Source: Goleter apudmare HA4340-LM2 (lineage in GTDB: Bacteria > Cyanobacteriota > Cyanobacteriia > Cyanobacteriales > Nostocaceae). From it: a DNA stretch of 64,000 nt. The notes below the pieces were generated by a model, which did no database searches, had not been told where the DNA came from, and saw only the letters and a program-made list of their open reading frames with translations. Numbering within the stretch: position 1 is the first letter of the stretch; every line of letters begins with the position of its first letter. This document shows, in pieces, positions 2,404 to 56,332 of the stretch. A program made the translations under genes and the position numbers. Location of the stretch: positions 1 to 64,000 of the forward strand of contig JAHHHF010000076.1 of assembly GCA_019359495.1 (NCBI GenBank), written 5' to 3'.

Positions 2404-3552
2404 TTAAGTGGAAATACTCCGCAAATGGCGACGGGCTAATTTGACGTAAGTTTTTACTGTAGTGTATGGCATTTCTAAATCTGTAGCGATCGCTTGCAAT
2501 GATTCGCCCATTTCTCGCCTTGCCAAAATTGTCGCCCAAGTAGAAGCAATTTTATCAGTGCGATCGCCCCCTGTGCGTTTTCTTTGGGCGGTAAATAAGG
2601 CCGTCAATTCAGCAATGCGTTCTCCTAGCAGATTTGTTAATAGTTGCACTGAATCACTCGCCTCTGGTTCCACCCAATCTAGGCGGGTTTGTCCTAGCCC
2701 AAATGTGGTTTTGTGCCCCGTACCGCAGTAAGGGGCGAGTTTTACCAAAGCATAAAACAACTGGGTAAACTCAGCGTTAGCCAAAGCTGCTTTACTCAAC
2801 CCACAAGCAATTGCTCCTGTAAACCCAGTCACCGAACCCCGTTTACCTGCGGCTACTTTCACTGATTCCAAGCGGTGTTGATGGATAATCACCCCTGCAT
2901 CTATCCAGTCCAGAAAGGCTTCTTGTGCAACTGGAATTCCCGAAAAGTCATTCCAGCGACGCAGGTAGCTGTGGAAGAGATTCACGGGAACAGGGAGGGG
3001 GAAATGATGACCTTTGCGGCGAAAGCTGGTAGGCGAGACAAAGCTAAGGCTGATGTAAGAGTGTTTCTCTGAGGATGGCTGCAACAGTTGGGCGTAGGTA
3101 GTGGGTGGATGGGCTATCCTCACCTGTTTGATTTGCAGAGGTGCATCTTTTAAGTCGAGAATTGGGGGTAGTTGGGTTAACCATTGACTCAGAAATTGGG
3201 CAACTTTTGGAGAAAGGGCATTGACATGCCAGCTGTAAATTTGGTTCGCTTCTAAATGTAGTTGTCTCCCACTGGCGAGGAGTTGACCTGCCAGCGCTGA
3301 GATATTGAAAGGCTTCTCTGACTCTCCATCATGGAGATAGGCAGAAAGATCAGGGTCAAATTGCCGTACTTGGTCAAGAAACCAGGCATGGAGTCCGATA
3401 GTGTATTGAGAATAAAGTGAACAGGAAGTAGTTGGTTCCAGGTCAAATACCAATCCTACTAATTCAGTATCATTTGACCACACAGGGAACGCAGAGGGAG
3501 ATACTGACTTAGGCTTGGCTTTGCGCCCAGGAGATGTAGCTGCTCTTGCCAT
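2404..3552 (-). CDS. cas6: Cas6-family CRISPR endoribonuclease with C-terminal HTH
   Basis: Cas6 proteins cut CRISPR precursor RNA within each repeat. The 382-residue protein has the N-terminal Cas6 signature (GLHAWFLDQ at 53-61 and YLHDGESEKPFNISAL at 72-87; H55 and H74 are candidate catalytic histidines). The central block SFRRKGHHFPLPVP is at 176-189. The family glycine-rich loop is CGTGHKTTFGLGQT at 276-289. Residues about 300-382 are an addition not found in ordinary Cas6; the last 45 (REMGESLQAIATDLEMPY, then TTVKTYVKLARRHL) look like a sigma-region-4 or LuxR type helix-turn-helix. No cas neighbour and no repeat array is visible in the window, so this is an orphan. A CRISPR-repeat-like hairpin sits 39 bp upstream of the start, on the transcribed strand. 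Family assignment is good; nuclease activity is inferred. Confidence 0.85.
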   Translation of the reverse strand: MARAATSPGRKAKPKSVSPSAFPVWSNDTELVGLVFDLEPTTSCSLYSQYTIGLHAWFLDQVRQFDPDLSAYLHDGESEKPFNISALAGQLLASGRQLHLEANQIYSWHVNALSPKVAQFLSQWLTQLPPILDLKDAPLQIKQVRIAHPPTTYAQLLQPSSEKHSYISLSFVSPTSFRRKGHHFPLPVPVNLFHSYLRRWNDFSGIPVAQEAFLDWIDAGVIIHQHRLESVKVAAGKRGSVTGFTGAIACGLSKAALANAEFTQLFYALVKLAPYCGTGHKTTFGLGQTRLDWVEPEASDSVQLLTNLLGERIAELTALFTAQRKRTGGDRTDKIASTWATILARREMGESLQAIATDLEMPYTTVKTYVKLARRHLRSIST

Positions 3553-3590
3553 CGCCGGATACTATGGAAATTATGTTAAATATTTTACTT

Positions 3591-3618
3591 GTTTTCCATC
3601 CCCTTGTGGGGAAATTAG
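3591..3618 (-). repeat. Solitary CRISPR-repeat-like hairpin in the cas6 leader
   Basis: Read on the minus strand, the element has an AATT-containing left flank, a 5-bp stem TCCCC/GGGGA with an ACAA loop (stem arms 3599-3603 and 3608-3612), and the 3' tail TGGAAAAC. This is the general form of many cyanobacterial CRISPR repeats, which end in a hairpin followed by a GGAAAC or GAAAC handle. Only one copy is visible. The cas6 ATG lies 39 nt downstream, so the element would be in the mRNA leader if transcription starts further upstream. Resemblance is from memory of repeat form, not a database match. Confidence 0.5.
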
Positions 3619-4766: not shown

Positions 4767-6596
4767 GTGAGAATAGGCGCTCACTACTTGCGTAATGGAG
4801 AATGTGAATTTACAGTTTGGTGTCCAACATTAAACAGCGTTGCAGTGGAAATTTTAACGCCAGAACAGCAGTTAGTTGAGCTGAAACCCCAGGCAGAGGG
4901 ATACTGGCAAGGGAAAGTCAATGATGTTTATCCAGATGCGCTGTATCAGTATGTATTAAATCAGCAAGCCGCCTTTGCTGATCCGGCTTCTCAGTATCAA
5001 CCCCAAGGAGTACACGGGCCTTCTCAAGTTGTCGATCATCAGTGCGACTGGAGGGATGCAGGATGGACTGGCGTTCCCTTGGAATCGATGATTTTTTATG
5101 AACTTCATGTGGGTACATTCACCCCGGAGGGTACTTTCACAGCGATTATCCCCCGCTTACCAGAACTGAAGGAACTAGGAATTAACGCCATTGAAATCAT
5201 GCCGATCGCTCAATTTCCAGGCGATACTCATATTGAACCTGCCTTAGCATATCGCAACTGGGGATATGATGGTGTTTACCCCTTTGCTGTCCAAAATTCC
5301 TATGGTAGTCCCGCCGATTTCAAGGAACTGGTGAATGCTTGTCACCAACACGGGATTGCTGTGGTGCTGGATGTGGTTTATAACCACTTTGGCCCAGAAG
5401 GTAATTACATGAATCAATTTGCGCCCTACTTTACTCACACCTACAGGACACCGTGGGGCGACGCCATGAATTTTGACGATGCTCACTCTCAAGGCGTGCG
5501 AAATTATTTTATCCAAAATGCCCTATATTGGCTCAGAGAGTTTCACGTTGATGCGTTGCGATTAGATGCAATTCAAGCAATTTATGATTTAGGAGCCAAG
5601 CATTTCTTGTGGGAGTTAGGGGAAGCTGTGCATAGCTTTTGCCAAGGTAAGACATGGAAACGCCATTTAATTGCCGAAAGTGACCTAAATAATCCCCAAA
5701 TCATTCGTCCGCCGTCATTGGGTGGTTATGGATTGGATGCACAGTGGAGTGATGACTTTCACCATGCATTGCACACATTGCTAACAGGCGATCGCCAAGG
5801 TTACTATGAAGACTTTGGTAAATGTGCCGATTTAGCTAAAGCTTACACGGATACTTTTGTTTACGATTGGCAATACGCCCGACACCGTAAACGATATCAT
5901 GGGATTTCTTGCCGCGATCGCCCATTGTCTCAGTTTTTGGTGTGTATCCAAAATCACGACCAAATCGGCAATCAAATGAAGGGAGAGCGCCTGAGTGAGC
6001 GCATCTCGTTTGCGGGGTTAAAGTTGGCGGCTGGTGCGGTGTTACTATCACCTTACTTACCTTTGTTGTTCATGGGGGAAGAATACGGCGAAACCGCACC
6101 TTTTTTATACTTTGTCAGCCACTCTGATCCTGATTTAATTCAAGCTGTCCGCGCTGGACGTAAACAAGAATTTAAAGCTTTTCACTATGCAGAAGATCCA
6201 CCAGATCCGGAATCTGCATCAACATTTTTGCGTTGTCAACTCAACTGGGAATTGCGTCATCAAGGACAGCACAAGGTTTTATTAGATTGGTATCGCCAGT
6301 TAATTCAGTTACGCAAAACCCATCCAGCATTGTTGAATTACGACCGCAACGGTATTCAAGCAACTAGTGATGAAGAGAAAAAGTTAGTTGTGGTGCGTCG
6401 TTCTTCTGCGTCGAGGGAAGTGATCTTTGCGATGAATTTTAACTCATCTCCAGTCACGGTAACTCTGCCAATTGAGCGGGAGGCTGGCAAATTATTGGAT
6501 TCGGCAGATATACAAGCACCTGATAAGTTATCTGTGGGAGAGGAAGTGAGATTGGACGCTACGAGTTTGGTGATGTATGAGGTGGAATTTTTTTAA
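4767..6596 (+). CDS. treZ: Malto-oligosyltrehalose trehalohydrolase TreZ
   Basis: Releases trehalose from maltooligosyltrehalose made by TreY, the second step of the TreY/TreZ pathway from glycogen-type glucans. The 609-residue protein has an N-terminal CBM48-like beta domain (1-95) and a GH13 catalytic barrel: region I VLDVVYNHFGPEG, nucleophile aspartate in DALRLDAIQAIYD, acid/base glutamate in HLIAESDLNN, and the HD pair in IQNHDQIGNQ. Length fits the family. Translation starts at a GTG preceded by a strong GGGAGGA at 4754-4760. It is followed by treY and treH on the same strand, which points to one trehalose unit for synthesis and breakdown, as in desiccation-tolerant Nostocales. Identification is secure. 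Confidence 0.96.
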   Translation: MRIGAHYLRNGECEFTVWCPTLNSVAVEILTPEQQLVELKPQAEGYWQGKVNDVYPDALYQYVLNQQAAFADPASQYQPQGVHGPSQVVDHQCDWRDAGWTGVPLESMIFYELHVGTFTPEGTFTAIIPRLPELKELGINAIEIMPIAQFPGDTHIEPALAYRNWGYDGVYPFAVQNSYGSPADFKELVNACHQHGIAVVLDVVYNHFGPEGNYMNQFAPYFTHTYRTPWGDAMNFDDAHSQGVRNYFIQNALYWLREFHVDALRLDAIQAIYDLGAKHFLWELGEAVHSFCQGKTWKRHLIAESDLNNPQIIRPPSLGGYGLDAQWSDDFHHALHTLLTGDRQGYYEDFGKCADLAKAYTDTFVYDWQYARHRKRYHGISCRDRPLSQFLVCIQNHDQIGNQMKGERLSERISFAGLKLAAGAVLLSPYLPLLFMGEEYGETAPFLYFVSHSDPDLIQAVRAGRKQEFKAFHYAEDPPDPESASTFLRCQLNWELRHQGQHKVLLDWYRQLIQLRKTHPALLNYDRNGIQATSDEEKKLVVVRRSSASREVIFAMNFNSSPVTVTLPIEREAGKLLDSADIQAPDKLSVGEEVRLDATSLVMYEVEFF

Positions 6597-6650
6597 CGCA
6601 GAGGTACGCAAAGGTAGGCGCGGAGGTACGCGGAGTGTTTCTGTGGTCTA
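6597..6650. repeat. Dispersed CGCAGAGGTACGCGGAG-type repeat
   Basis: The treZ-treY spacer contains iterated variants of GGTACGCGGAG and CGCAGAGGTACGC. A clearly related block occurs at about 63909-63950 at the far end of the window, after an unrelated gene. Such purine-rich iterated units are common in intergenic DNA of Nostoc-type genomes. It sits between two genes of one pathway, so it is presumably transcribed. Confidence 0.6.
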
Positions 6651-6695
6651 TTGGCGGTGAATAATGATGTATGTTGAGTGGAGAAGAATTAAGAT

Positions 6696-9479
6696 ATGCG
6701 AATACCGACAGCGACTTATAGGATTCAGTTTACACCACAGTTTGGTTTTGAGAATGCGAGAGCGATCGCAGCTTATTTAGCAGATTTAGGCGTTTCTGAT
6801 CTTTATGCTTCCCCGATTTTTAGGGCGCGTACTGGTAGTACACATGGCTATGATGTTGTAGATGCTACACAGCTAAATCCACAATTAGGGACTAGTGAGT
6901 CTTTTGAGTCTTTGGTTGGTGAACTACAGTCTCTTGGTATGGGCTGGTTGCAAGATATTGTCCCCAACCACATGGCTTACAGTAGCGAAAATCCCTATTT
7001 GATGGATGTGTTAGAACATGGTCCGGATTCTAGCTACACGGACTACTTTGATGTATGTTGGAATTCGCCATTTGGTAGCTCTCAAGAGCGAATTCTCACG
7101 CCACTATTAGGAGATTTTTATGGCGCTTCCCTGGAAAAGGGAGATATTCAACTGCAATATTCACAGAGTGGTTTAACTGTCAACTATTACAGCTTAAAAT
7201 TGCCATTGCGGTTAGAGTCTTATACCAAATTTCTCACTTATAATCTCGGTAAACTGACGCGTACATTAGGCAGAAATCATCCTGATTTTATTAAACTATT
7301 AGGAATACTCTACATTCTTAAAAATGTGCCCTCGGAAGTTGCAGGAAAGCAGCGACAAGACCAAATCGCATTTATTAAAGGCTTGATTTGGGAACTATAC
7401 ACTGCAAATGATGACATACATGATTTTATAGAGGAGAACCTCAAAATATTTAATGGGGAACTAAGTAACGCTGATAGCTTTAATTTGCTAGATGACTTAC
7501 TCAAGGACCAATTTTATCGCCTCGCCTTCTGGAAAGTTGGGGCGGAAGAAATGAACTATCGCCGTTTCTTTACTGTGAATGAATTGATTTCTGTGAAAGT
7601 TGAAGAACTGCGGGTTTTTCATAACACCCATTCTTTAATTCAAAAGCTAGTAGAAGATGGTGTATTCACTGGCCTACGCATTGACCACATTGACGGACTT
7701 TATCATCCCACACAGTATCTAGAAAGGCTGCGAGAAAAATTAGGTGATGTTTATATCACCGTCGAAAAGATTTTAGAAATCACTGAATATTTGCCAGATA
7801 ATTGGCAAATTCAAGGTACTTCGGGATATGACTTCTTGAATTATGTAAATGGCGTATTTTGTCAATCAAAAAATCAAGCAACATTTGAAAATATTTACCA
7901 GACATTTATTGGTTCGCGTGTAAATTATCCGTCTCTGGTGAAGGAGAACAAGCACCTAATATTAGAAAAGAACTTGGCAGGCGATATTGATAATTTAGCG
8001 AGCTTGTTAAAGAATATTTCTAGTAAATACCGCTATGGTAATGACTTTACCTTAAACGGACTCAAAAGAGCGATCGCCGAAGTGCTCACTCTATTCCCAG
8101 TCTACCGGACTTATATCACCCCCGATGGCATTCAAGATAGCGATCGCCTCTGTATTCAACAAGTAATTCGCACCGCTAAAAAACAAATACCTCTGTTGCT
8201 GCATGAACTGACTTTTATTGAAAAATTAATGCTGTTGGAGTTTGATGATTCTCTTACCCAAGCAGAACGGGAACAGTGGATATATTTTGTTTTGCGAATG
8301 CAGCAATATAGCGGCCCTTTGATGGCTAAAGGCGTAGAAGACACCACATTATATGTTTACAACCGTCTCTTATCCCTGAATGAAGTCGGTGGAAATCCCA
8401 GTCATTTTGGGATTTCTGTAGAGCAATTTCACACCTTTAACCAGCAGCACCAAGCAAACTGGCCGCACACTATGAACGCCACAGCTACCCATGACACCAA
8501 GCGTGGTGAAGATGTCAGAGCCAGGTTAAATGTATTGTCAGAAATTCCCCAAGAATGGAAACAACAAGTTAATCTGTGGAGCGAACTGAATCAAGCACAT
8601 CACAGTCATGGCTACCCCGATCGCAACGATGAATATTTCCTTTATCAAACATTAGTAGGAGCATTTCCCTTTGCTGAACAAGAACAATCTGCATTCGTAC
8701 AAAGAGTACAGGAATACATGATTAAAGCCATTCGGGAAGCGAAAGTTCATACAGCATGGTTGCGACCTGATAATGACTACGAAGAAGCTTGTACCTCCTT
8801 TATCCACAAAGTACTTGACCCCAATGTATCCCAAAAGTTTTTAGAAACATTTCGCCCTTTGCAACAAAAAATTGCCGAGTATGGCATATTTAATTCTCTT
8901 TCCCAAACTCTACTAAAAATAGTAGCCCCAGGAGTACCTGACATCTACCAAGGAACAGAACTCTGGGATTTAAGTTTAGTTGACCCCGACAACCGCCGCC
9001 CCGTAGATTTTGAACAGCGACGTGTTTATCTGAGTAGCATTCAAGAGCAAATGAAGAATGATATTCTCAGTTTAATTCCAGAATTACTCCAGCACAAAAC
9101 CGACGGTAGAATCAAACTCTTTTTAACATTGCAAGCACTCAAAGCCAGAACAAAATACCTTTCATTATTCCAAACAGGCGACTATTTACCATTAAAAATT
9201 CAAGGAAACCACGCCAATCACATCATCGCCTTTGCCCGCCAACAAGACAAGCAAACAGCGATCGCCATCGCCCCACGATTCCTTACCAGCCTCATCCAAC
9301 CTGGAGAAGCACCCCTAGGTGAAGCCGTATGGCAAGATACACACTTGCAATTACCAACAGATGCTTCCAAATGGCACAACGTCCTCACTAATCAATCCTT
9401 ACACCTACAGGAAACCCTATCCATTAGCACCGCCCTTACCCATTTCCCAGTAGCCTTATTAATTAATAACGCCGAGTAA
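6696..9479 (+). CDS. treY: Maltooligosyl trehalose synthase TreY
   Basis: Isomerises the reducing-end alpha-1,4 link of maltodextrins to alpha,alpha-1,1, giving maltooligosyltrehalose for TreZ. The 927-residue protein starts with the family signature IPTATYRIQFTPQFGFENA and contains GH13 motifs: IVPNHMAYSSENPYLMDVLE, the nucleophile aspartate in GLRIDHIDGLYHP (about 325-337), a downstream VEKILEITEYLP with the acid/base glutamate, and the TreY-typical GTSGYDFLN and MAKGVEDTTLYVYNRL segments. PGVPDIYQGTELWDLSLVDP near 750 is a hallmark of the family. GGAGAAG at about 6680 precedes the ATG. It is the middle gene of treZ-treY-treH. Confidence 0.96.
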   Translation: MRIPTATYRIQFTPQFGFENARAIAAYLADLGVSDLYASPIFRARTGSTHGYDVVDATQLNPQLGTSESFESLVGELQSLGMGWLQDIVPNHMAYSSENPYLMDVLEHGPDSSYTDYFDVCWNSPFGSSQERILTPLLGDFYGASLEKGDIQLQYSQSGLTVNYYSLKLPLRLESYTKFLTYNLGKLTRTLGRNHPDFIKLLGILYILKNVPSEVAGKQRQDQIAFIKGLIWELYTANDDIHDFIEENLKIFNGELSNADSFNLLDDLLKDQFYRLAFWKVGAEEMNYRRFFTVNELISVKVEELRVFHNTHSLIQKLVEDGVFTGLRIDHIDGLYHPTQYLERLREKLGDVYITVEKILEITEYLPDNWQIQGTSGYDFLNYVNGVFCQSKNQATFENIYQTFIGSRVNYPSLVKENKHLILEKNLAGDIDNLASLLKNISSKYRYGNDFTLNGLKRAIAEVLTLFPVYRTYITPDGIQDSDRLCIQQVIRTAKKQIPLLLHELTFIEKLMLLEFDDSLTQAEREQWIYFVLRMQQYSGPLMAKGVEDTTLYVYNRLLSLNEVGGNPSHFGISVEQFHTFNQQHQANWPHTMNATATHDTKRGEDVRARLNVLSEIPQEWKQQVNLWSELNQAHHSHGYPDRNDEYFLYQTLVGAFPFAEQEQSAFVQRVQEYMIKAIREAKVHTAWLRPDNDYEEACTSFIHKVLDPNVSQKFLETFRPLQQKIAEYGIFNSLSQTLLKIVAPGVPDIYQGTELWDLSLVDPDNRRPVDFEQRRVYLSSIQEQMKNDILSLIPELLQHKTDGRIKLFLTLQALKARTKYLSLFQTGDYLPLKIQGNHANHIIAFARQQDKQTAIAIAPRFLTSLIQPGEAPLGEAVWQDTHLQLPTDASKWHNVLTNQSLHLQETLSISTALTHFPVALLINNAE

Positions 9480-9547
9480 GAAATAACTCAACGATAAATT
9501 CCTGTATCACTTCTTACATCTGCTTCCTCTGCGTGAGAAAAATTTCT

Positions 9548-11041
9548 ATGATCACCACATCCCAAATCCAAGCCGTCCGCGCTTACATCAAAAAGACCTG
9601 GAAAACCCTAACAAGATCGCACACCCACTTACTACAATCCGTCAAAGATACGAAGCTAGAACACCAAAAAGATATTCCTTGGATTCTCTATATTTCCCTC
9701 CAAGAAGACTATGAAACTGTAAAATCCGTCTTAGAGCGATCGCTATCTCCACAAGACTTACAACAAATTGATATTCGCAACTTACCCAGTGAAGTCGAAG
9801 CCACCCGCGAACATGGGTTACTCTATTTACCAGGCCCTTACGTTGTCCCTGGTGGTCGCTTTAACGAAATGTACGGTTGGGATAGCTACTTTATCTTGTT
9901 AGGACTATTGCGAGACGAAGAGTGGGAGTTAGCACAAAGTCAAGTTGACCAGTTACTCTACCAAATGGATCATTACGGTACGATTTTGAACGCTAACCGT
10001 ACCTATATGCTGTCACGCTCCCAACCCCCCGTCTTGAGCATGATGGTTGTAGCGCTGTTCCAGCACACCCAGGATGAAGCATGGCTGAGGAAAACAGTAC
10101 CACTACTAGAACAGTTTTATTACTATTGGGTAGTGCCGCCACACTTGAATGCAGCCACAGGTTTATCTAGATATTATGCCTTGGGGGAAGGCCCAGCACC
10201 AGAAGTCTTGTACTCAGAACGGGATGAGCAGGGACGCAGCCACTATGAGCGTGTCAAGCAATATTATCAAACCTTTGAGATTGATGATTATGATGTCAGT
10301 CTTTTCTATGACCGAGAGAAAGACGAACTGACAGATTTATTTTACAAAGGCGATCGCTCCATGCGCGAATCTGGCTTTGATATCACCAACCGCTTTGGCC
10401 CTTTTAGTGTTGATATCATCCACTATGCACCGATTTGCTTAAACAGCTTACTTTATCAAGTAGAACAAGATATAGCGCAAATTCATGATATCTTTGGCAG
10501 CAAAGAACTAGTACAACAATGGAGCGATCGCGCTGCTAAACGGCGCGAGTATATCGATAAGTATCTCTGGGATGAAGCACAGGGGCTATATCTGGACTAT
10601 CACTTCGACGGTGGCGATCGTCGCCCTTATGAATTTGTTACCACCTTCTACCCTCTGTGGACAGGACTAGCTTCTCCAGAACAAGCCCAGCGCGTAGTCA
10701 AAAATCTCGACCTATTTGAAGCCCCAGGGGGAATCTTCACCAGTACACGCGTCACTGGTTCCCAGTGGGATGCACCTTTTGGCTGGGCACCCCTGACCTT
10801 AATTGCCGTCCAGGGACTGCATCGTTATGGATATCATACAGAAGGCGATCGCATTGCCCGGAAATTCTTGGCTATGGCTATTAAAGAATTTGAGCAACAT
10901 GGCACATTGGTGGAAAAATATGATGTTGAACGCTGTTCTGCTCAAGTGAGTGACGAAATCTGCTTTGGATATAGTTCTAATGAAATCGGTTTTGGTTGGA
11001 CTAATGGAACCATCTTAGAACTCTTGGCACAATTGCACTGA
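9548..11041 (+). CDS. treH: Trehalase TreH (GH37)
   Basis: Hydrolyses trehalose to two glucoses. Both GH37 trehalase signatures are visible: PGGRFNEMYGWDSYF about 105-120 and QWDAPFGWAPL in the C-terminal third. There is no signal peptide, so a cytoplasmic enzyme is expected. The open frame extends to a GTG at 9533, five codons earlier; neither start has a clear ribosome binding site, and I chose the ATG giving MITTSQIQAVRAY. It lies 68 bp after treY. Having the degrading enzyme next to the two synthetic ones suggests trehalose level is set by the balance of the three, as described for Anabaena treH mutants that accumulate trehalose and tolerate drying better. Confidence 0.93.
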   Translation: MITTSQIQAVRAYIKKTWKTLTRSHTHLLQSVKDTKLEHQKDIPWILYISLQEDYETVKSVLERSLSPQDLQQIDIRNLPSEVEATREHGLLYLPGPYVVPGGRFNEMYGWDSYFILLGLLRDEEWELAQSQVDQLLYQMDHYGTILNANRTYMLSRSQPPVLSMMVVALFQHTQDEAWLRKTVPLLEQFYYYWVVPPHLNAATGLSRYYALGEGPAPEVLYSERDEQGRSHYERVKQYYQTFEIDDYDVSLFYDREKDELTDLFYKGDRSMRESGFDITNRFGPFSVDIIHYAPICLNSLLYQVEQDIAQIHDIFGSKELVQQWSDRAAKRREYIDKYLWDEAQGLYLDYHFDGGDRRPYEFVTTFYPLWTGLASPEQAQRVVKNLDLFEAPGGIFTSTRVTGSQWDAPFGWAPLTLIAVQGLHRYGYHTEGDRIARKFLAMAIKEFEQHGTLVEKYDVERCSAQVSDEICFGYSSNEIGFGWTNGTILELLAQLH

Positions 11042-54889: not shown

Positions 54890-56332
54890 ATGAATACTCT
54901 CAGTTCTTTAAATTTAGTTAAATCCCTGGAAAACCTGAATCCAGAAACACCAAATTCTCAAGCCACTTACGCACTAATTTCAGTTCACGGCGACCCTACA
55001 GCAGAAATTGGTAAAGAAGGGGCAGGTGGACAAAATGTTTATGTGCGAGAATTGGGATTAGCATTAGCAAAACGAGGCTGCCAGGTTGATATGTTCACCC
55101 GACGTGAACACCCCAATCAAGAGGAAATTGTGGAACTAGCGCCAGGGTGTCGCACAATTCGTCTGACCGCCGGCCCAGTAGAATTTGTTACCAGAAACAG
55201 TTTATTTGAATATTTACCGGAATTTGTGGAAGCTTGGCTCAATTTCCAACAACAAACAGGACGTAACTATACACTAATTCATACTAATTACTGGCTTTCT
55301 GGTTGGGTGGGATTAGAACTTAAATCTCGATTGGGGCTACCCCAAGTTCATACCTATCACTCCATAGGAGCAGTTAAATACCGCAATGTGGAAAATCCAC
55401 CGCAGATTGCAGCCATTCGTCACTGTGTAGAGAGGGCAATTTTAGAGCAAGCAGATTGTGTAATTTCCACCAGCCCCCAAGAAGCAGAAGACCTCCGTCA
55501 GTTAATTTCACAACATGGACGGATAAAAGTCATTCCCTGCGGGATTAATACGGAACATTTTGGTTCTCTTAGTAAACAAGTTGCTCGCCAAAAGTTAGGA
55601 ATTACTCCAGATGCTCAGATTATCTTGTATGTAGGTCGCTTTGATCCCCGCAAGGGGGTTGAGACTCTTGTAAAAGCTTGCGCTAATCTACCTGATTCAT
55701 TTCAACTGTATCTAGTTGGTGGTAGCCGCGAAGATGGAGCAGACCTCCAAGAACAACTACGGATTCAAGCCTTGGTCAACAAATTGGGATTGAAAGCCGT
55801 TACAGTTTTTACCGGACGAATTTCTCAAGCATTGCTACCTGCTTACTATGCTGCCGGGGATATCTGCGTTGTACCAAGCTATTATGAGCCTTTTGGTTTA
55901 GTTGCTATTGAAGCAATGGCAGCCGGAACACCTGTAATTGCCAGTAATGTAGGAGGATTACAGCATACGGTAGTGCATGGTGAAACCGGGTTGTTAGTTC
56001 CTCCTCGTGATTTTCAAGCTTTGCAAAGCGCTATTCACAAACTCCTAGAAAAGCCTATCTTAAGGGAAAACTACGGCAATGTGGCACAGAATTGGGTTCA
56101 GTCTCGTTTTAGCACGTCAGGAGTTGCTGCCCAAATTGACGAACTTTACCAATCCCTCACACTTTCTACGTTTGTGCAAGAAATAATTCAAAGACAAAAG
56201 TTAACTCCAGAGTTGGAAAAGCAAATCCAAAATTTGTTGAAATCAAAAGTTTTGAAGTCCAGTGAAATAAAGGCTTTAGAAAAATTAATTGACTCATTTT
56301 CTAATGGCATTGTGCAGTGGGCAACTAGTTAG
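54890..56332 (+). CDS. Sucrose-phosphate synthase-type glycosyltransferase (GT4)
   Basis: Expected to transfer glucose from UDP- or ADP-glucose to fructose-6-phosphate. The 480-residue protein has the sucrose synthase/SPS-type N-terminus (ISVHGDPTAEIGKEGAGGQN, VYVRELGLALAKRGCQVDMF) and the GT-B C-terminal domain (ILYVGRFDPRKGVETLVKAC and the E-x7-E block PSYYEPFGLVAIEAMAAGTP). The last ~60 residues (TPELEKQIQNLLKSKVLKSS) form an extra helical tail. A TTG at 54857 would extend the frame by 11 codons, but the ATG is preferred. A phosphatase-like gene follows 20 bp later, the common order for sucrose synthesis. Confidence 0.85.
   Translation: MNTLSSLNLVKSLENLNPETPNSQATYALISVHGDPTAEIGKEGAGGQNVYVRELGLALAKRGCQVDMFTRREHPNQEEIVELAPGCRTIRLTAGPVEFVTRNSLFEYLPEFVEAWLNFQQQTGRNYTLIHTNYWLSGWVGLELKSRLGLPQVHTYHSIGAVKYRNVENPPQIAAIRHCVERAILEQADCVISTSPQEAEDLRQLISQHGRIKVIPCGINTEHFGSLSKQVARQKLGITPDAQIILYVGRFDPRKGVETLVKACANLPDSFQLYLVGGSREDGADLQEQLRIQALVNKLGLKAVTVFTGRISQALLPAYYAAGDICVVPSYYEPFGLVAIEAMAAGTPVIASNVGGLQHTVVHGETGLLVPPRDFQALQSAIHKLLEKPILRENYGNVAQNWVQSRFSTSGVAAQIDELYQSLTLSTFVQEIIQRQKLTPELEKQIQNLLKSKVLKSSEIKALEKLIDSFSNGIVQWATS

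Follow-up and report, generated by a model that had tools for sequence, protein, structure and literature searches.

A lone CRISPR-type repeat before cas6 in cyanobacteria is apparently part of the cas6 promoter rather than of its message

A single CRISPR-repeat-like hairpin stands directly before a cas6 gene of the cyanobacterium Goleter apudmare HA4340-LM2, in the first 64,000 nucleotides of contig JAHHHF010000076.1 (assembly GCA_019359495.1), the stretch referred to here as the window. Why is a repeat core found alone before the gene of a repeat-processing enzyme, and does it act there as RNA or as DNA? A preliminary description of the window placed the hairpin in the cas6 message, where Cas6 could bind or cleave it, or else regarded it as the last relic of an array. 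Comparison of orthologous loci suggests that a lone CRISPR-type repeat precedes cas6 in many cyanobacteria, and that it is apparently part of the promoter, not of the message. The locus comprises the following features:

2404..3552, minus strand: cas6 with a C-terminal sigma-region-4-like helix-turn-helix (HTH, approximately residues 306-380)
3553..3574, minus strand: predicted short cas6 leader without the hairpin, as suggested by the -10-like box
3582..3587, minus strand: TAAAAT, conserved -10-like box (consensus; putative function)
3588..3598, minus strand: 11-nt tail TGGAAAACAAG, the first part of which resembles the 3' handle of array repeats
3599..3612, minus strand: CRISPR-repeat-like palindrome TCCCC-ACAA-GGGGA, with a predicted position of about -25 to -38 in the promoter of cas6

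The hairpin is real and its coordinates were verified. On the minus strand, the TCCCC arm (3612-3608), preceded by AATT, is followed by the four-nucleotide loop ACAA (3607-3604) and the GGGGA arm (3603-3599), directly 3' of which lies TGGAAAAC (3598-3591); 38 nt separate the end of this stretch at 3591 from the cas6 ATG at 3552. The unit is also alone, as had been claimed, with no direct repeat partner of at least 20 nt within 200 nt. A search with TCCCCNNNNGGGGANGGAAA, allowing up to two mismatches, gave one match in the 64-kb window, compared with 0.04 expected in shuffled sequences. In the genome itself, TCCCCNNNNGGGGATGGAAAAC, with the four loop bases left free, has one exact match, the window element; five repeats of the array on contig C7 rank next with two mismatches, and the remaining six matches carry three mismatches each. 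Since the best non-self matches are the C7 array repeats, the window unit has the core of this genome's own repeat, which bears out the proposed kinship. The C7 repeat (GTTTTTAAATCACTTCCCCTCACGGGGATGGAAAC) and the window element have the stem and TGGAAA in common and differ in the loop. Being a single copy, with a degenerate 5' half unlike that of the C7 repeat, the window element is not a full-length repeat within an array. The 39-nt strand folds unexceptionally (-8.5 kcal/mol, z -1.67; 13 of 200 shuffles fold equally well), and an Rfam scan of the window returned zero matches. A second CCCC-N4-GGGG in the window (55646-55657, CCCCGCAAGGGG) encodes GRFDPRKG and is probably a coding coincidence despite its repeat-core look.

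The open reading frame at 2404-3552 encodes Cas6, with matches to PF10040 (5.7e-20) and TIGR01877 (1.3e-28); PF10040 and PF19308 were both matched in 52 of 52 relatives' proteins. The protein has a Cas6 fold with a C-terminal glycine-rich loop, and GTGHKTTFGLGQT is invariant. H55 and further residues are also invariant. The closest solved relatives of the Cas6 part are the Cas6 proteins of Thermus thermophilus (TTHA0078, TTHB231): that part of the predicted model matches Thermus Cas6 at Z 18-20, and the matched chains, of 243 and 268 residues, cover the Cas6 part only. The last 80 residues are predicted to form an HTH, the pLDDT being 76.8 for the full-length model and 87.6 for the C-terminal part alone. 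Pfam Sigma70_r4_2 matches 44 of the 52 relatives at E <= 0.01, and the window protein scores 22.7 bits, below the curated cut-off of 25.7. The HTH model matches the sigma region 4 structures 3hug, 2h27, 6jhe and 1ku3 at Z 6-7, a middling match tied with other HTHs and some unrelated helical folds; Foldseek places 3hug and 2h27 best (E 0.26-0.29), a profile search places SigW first at 0.11 with unrelated proteins next, and phmmer with the HTH alone against the PDB gave no match at E <= 1. The HTH core is the best conserved part of the protein, with a mean majority residue of 87%; the two halves of the Cas6 part reach 72% and 81%. A note to the PADLOC model states that an HTH of this kind is commonly found joined to Cas6, and the fusion as such is therefore not new.

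The term orphan, applied earlier to this cas6, agrees with a PADLOC scan of five neighbouring open reading frames, none of which was named as cas, two of them having DpdF-like and GlgB-like matches. The gene upstream of cas6 is divergent, and on one side of cas6 the contig ends one gene further on. The GlgB-like match is among three consecutive plus-strand genes at 4767-11041, which resemble genes of trehalose metabolism. By PF10040 the genome has two cas6 genes, that of the window and Cas6d, the latter belonging to a I-D locus on contig C84, close to repeats of a different core, TCCCTATTAGGGATTGAAAC. A III-D locus on contig C2 of the same genome (L232, G000 contig C2, 4500-24400) comprises Cas10, Csx10, four Csm3-type proteins, CARF-RelE, Csx3 and Csx21; no cas6 was found in the ten open reading frames scanned there, and two repeat-like CCCC..GGGG units adjoin the locus. 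The situation resembles that of Anabaena PCC 7120, which has two Cas6 enzymes and whose arrays were allocated to III-D or I-D on the basis of Cas6 specificity, according to the available part of PMC9938897: here too a I-D system has Cas6d and a III-D system is without cas6. By analogy with Anabaena 7120, the orphan Cas6-HTH may serve the III-D arrays in trans.

A protein search over 192 genomes of the family matched 177, other Cas6 families counted. From the matches listed we assembled 90 orthologous loci, namely 58 close ones (group A, 70-100% identical), consisting of the first 30 and all 28 further full-length close orthologues listed, and 32 distant ones (group B, 56-67%), hand-picked from about 59. 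The composite TCCCC-N4-GGGGA-N10/11-TAnAAT is present in 62 of the 90 loci (group A, 50/58; group B, 12/32), with palindrome and box 11 nt apart in 55 loci and 10 nt apart in the other 7, so that conservation of the element before cas6-HTH orthologues, on which its significance had been made to depend, is borne out. These 62 loci were selected on the element itself, and base-by-base invariance within them is therefore inflated. A fairer count uses the -10-like box as anchor and ignores the palindrome; at least four of five bases were then found for the 5' arm in 49 and for the 3' arm in 50 of the 58 group A loci, with the anchor misplaced in L075 and in many group B loci and one-base shifts uncorrected. 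Furthermore, CCCC-N3-5-GGGG lies near the start in 44 of 58 group A loci versus 0.19 expected and in 18 of 32 group B loci versus 0.12, array loci counted, where the expectation is calculated from how often isolated hairpins occur in other parts of these loci. As judged by eye, no such element precedes five distant HTH-less cas6 genes of relatives or the genome's own cas6d. The element is thus a repeat outside arrays that is conserved in related cas loci, as befits a standalone repeat. Among 43 further named loci (L185-L227, taken from 80 and partly from the same genomes as group B), the hairpin is near the start in 12 versus 0.28 expected; the canonical geometry is found in only L203 (Symplocastrum) and L189, which is the same organism locus as L082. 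We therefore rejected a rule that would cover every Cas6 of this kind. A wider regulon was rejected as well: of the exact matches listed away from a full cas6, nine were opened, seven of them lying in arrays and two (L119, L121) having no clear gene behind.

The preliminary description made no mention of TAAAAT at 3587-3582, between the hairpin and the ATG. In the simplest reading of these sequences, TAnAAT would be a -10 box, with transcription starting about 7 nt further on (approximately 3574) and the palindrome lying at about -25 to -38; that the palindrome occupies a promoter position we regard, taken alone, as likely. In 37 array-less, upstream-diverse loci, a set selected on the element, information does not exceed 0.33 bit at any position from -60 to -6 before the hairpin, and amounts to 1.6-2.0 bit in the stem, 1.5-2.0 bit in TAnAAT and approximately 1.5-1.6 bit at the two central A of the tail. 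A promoter further upstream should have left a trace in close relatives, and none is seen. Moreover, three lineages (L045/L052, L051 and L106) have lost the 5' arm and kept the 3' arm, the tail and the -10-like box, which speaks for the proximal half having a function in the promoter. Given a -10-like box 11 nt 3' of the hairpin, an unconserved upstream stretch and a divergent neighbour, a start downstream of 3591 is the likely state, and the claim that the cas6 message carries the hairpin is probably wrong.

These same observations weigh against a leader RNA, in which the hairpin, carried by the cas6 message or by array read-through, would be bound or cut by Cas6 and so limit Cas6 synthesis; we consider this unlikely, the more so as lineages without the 5' arm keep the remainder. 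It is kept alive by two findings. A consensus promoter scan of the minus strand gave a weak match at 3663-3634, upstream of the hairpin, alongside another at 3598-3570, downstream of or overlapping the element. In six Fischerella-type loci (L098, L101, L102, L198, L199, L202), the order is inverted: TTAAAAT comes first and TTCCCC-N4-GGGGAA follows about 9 nt later, so that the palindrome would be transcribed. In its favour, too, the stem and GAAA tail resemble a Cas6 substrate and were retained after array loss, and the stem pairs well: in 60 of the 62 element sequences (selected on the hairpin; L056 and L067 left out for length), 98% of 300 cells are paired, a value reached in 18 of 500 shuffles. 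The covariation score of 0.049 was also reached in 18 of 500, and the single two-sided change among the 60 sequences in 142 of 500. The stem is nearly invariant, which makes pairing hard to test by covariation, and compensatory change cannot decide between the RNA and DNA readings.

Where the element came from is indicated by the relatives in which an array adjoins cas6. With an array defined as three hairpins in 700 nt, 89 loci could be scored, L071, with two more repeats before its element, being left out. An array runs up to cas6 in 21 of the 89, 20 of them in group A, and in most the element is the last repeat; four of the 20 group A array loci (L045, L052, L063, L067) fail the element definition. 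The protein tree requires 10 or more switches of the array state, and the element is kept in 34 of 37 scorable array-less group A loci (35 of 38 with L071), where L026, L028, L035 and L043 were scored array-less despite one further hairpin within 600 nt. In G116 and G039, a leader is followed by 8 and 9 repeats, respectively, and then by cas6. In G079, which is closely related to both, what resembles the end of a leader is followed by a single repeat and cas6. From that repeat through cas6 it is like them; the stretch before the repeat can be aligned to the last part of the G116 leader together with the first repeat (84% over 90 columns), and no leader match to G039 was found. In G102, a further relative, a full repeat stands alone, and no stretch resembling a leader was seen. 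The state of G079 is best explained by loss through repeat-to-repeat recombination. Thus, the earlier idea of an array relic fits the origin of the element, with 20 close relatives in which an array ends at cas6 and G079 with its single repeat, and we consider an array origin very probable. The promoter hairpin of L026 and L028 (also of L025, as judged by eye) is preceded at only about 43 nt by another repeat-like hairpin, a shorter distance than between the repeats of an array.

We propose that a CRISPR array, since lost, formerly extended right up to cas6 and that the hairpin was its terminal repeat. The repeat core would have been kept because it now serves as upstream element of the cas6 promoter, in the order TCCCC-N4-GGGGA, 11 nt, TAAAAT and a start at about 3574, with the palindrome, as DNA, in the usual place of the -35 box. 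It would most likely be bound by the HTH of Cas6, a domain similar to the one with which sigma factors bind the -35 box, so that Cas6 would control its own gene. As the palindrome overlaps the sigma contact site, control would probably be negative feedback; the near-fixed spacing fits an activator or a sigma-like contact better than a simple repressor. Where the array is still attached, Cas6 would also cut read-through RNA at the terminal repeat. We assign a probability of about 0.5 to this reading as a whole, a promoter-embedded terminal repeat bound as DNA most likely by the HTH of Cas6 itself; binding of the palindrome by the HTH, taken alone, is tentative and falls somewhat short of even odds. 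Counterpoints are the lack of the canonical element in 20 of the 32 group B loci, the four array loci that fail and the middling fold matches of the HTH. In a more speculative and rather doubtful extension, Cas6-HTH would read one repeat twice, as RNA through its nuclease domain and as double-stranded DNA through its sigma-4-like domain. Its own promoter carrying a repeat instead of a -35 box, array repeats (as DNA, RNA or both) would then titrate Cas6 away from that promoter, and the amount of Cas6 would track how many repeats the cell contains.

The promoter element might instead be bound by another regulator, or contacted by RNA polymerase alone, with the HTH serving, for example, arrays or effector complexes. 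The HTH is equally conserved in the group B loci lacking the canonical element, Cas6-HTH binding is only proposed and the sigma-like match is middling, all of which agree with such an arrangement; yet the element is specific to this gene, having one exact match in its genome, and the nine matches opened elsewhere fall in arrays or lack a clear gene, which makes it improbable. That the hairpin is a functionless, decaying last repeat would agree with the array origin in relatives and with the degenerate 5' half in the window, but core and spacing are retained amid random flanks in those 34 of 37 array-less close orthologues, and a neutral relic is very unlikely. A CreR-like mini-array, whose guide RNA would repress cas6 through an effector complex, is known for other types (from the accessible portion of PMC13131331) but hardly credible here, since no second repeat is present near 3600 and no conserved stretch lies upstream as a candidate for the spacer, partly complementary to a cas promoter, that such a unit carries.

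Standalone repeats acting via guide RNAs are reportedly the subject of Shmakov 2023. The window element adds a case that differs from the known ones in its setting. Standalone or ectopic repeats (CreTA, CreR and mini-arrays) regulate cas or toxin genes and, like the window element, lie outside arrays, are linked to cas genes and keep the core with degenerate flanks, as far as the available parts of PMC9458426 and PMC13131331 describe them. They differ in that guide RNAs, together with Cascade or another effector, mediate their action, whereas the window element, unlike CreTA and CreR, consists of one repeat without a conserved spacer at a fixed core-promoter place. Cbp1 of Sulfolobales is an HTH protein that binds CRISPR-repeat DNA, including repeat-like sites outside arrays, and affects transcription (PMC10883916, in the part available); it is not a Cas6 and has three HTHs, and the binding by Cas6-HTH is only proposed. 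Single repeats of phages, the solitary repeat units and Racr, mimic array repeats and engage Cas6 (PMC10651486, likewise in part); these are viral, transcribed and inhibitory, whereas the window element is chromosomal and linked to cas6. Standalone regulatory repeats, HTH binding of repeat DNA and the Cas6-HTH fusion are therefore already known; the literature searched, whose scope did not extend to the main Anabaena Cas6 papers (Reimann 2020, Hou 2019), yielded neither a description of a repeat within the promoter or leader of a cas6 gene nor a function for the fusion. If the proposed reading is true, a CRISPR system would adjust how much processing enzyme it makes with no need for a guide RNA, through the leftover repeat of a lost array used as a promoter element. 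This would suggest a purpose for the sigma-like HTH of a widespread cyanobacterial Cas6, and array loss would have left a selected remnant rather than a scar.

A stand-alone HTH regulator was also considered and rejected: the nine HTH-homologue loci opened appeared to hold pieces of broken or split cas6-HTH copies, with no regulator gene. Cas6-HTH copies are often broken and sometimes several per genome (L114, L116), with fragments in L108-L113 and L115; in L115, an HTH remnant comes directly after array repeats.
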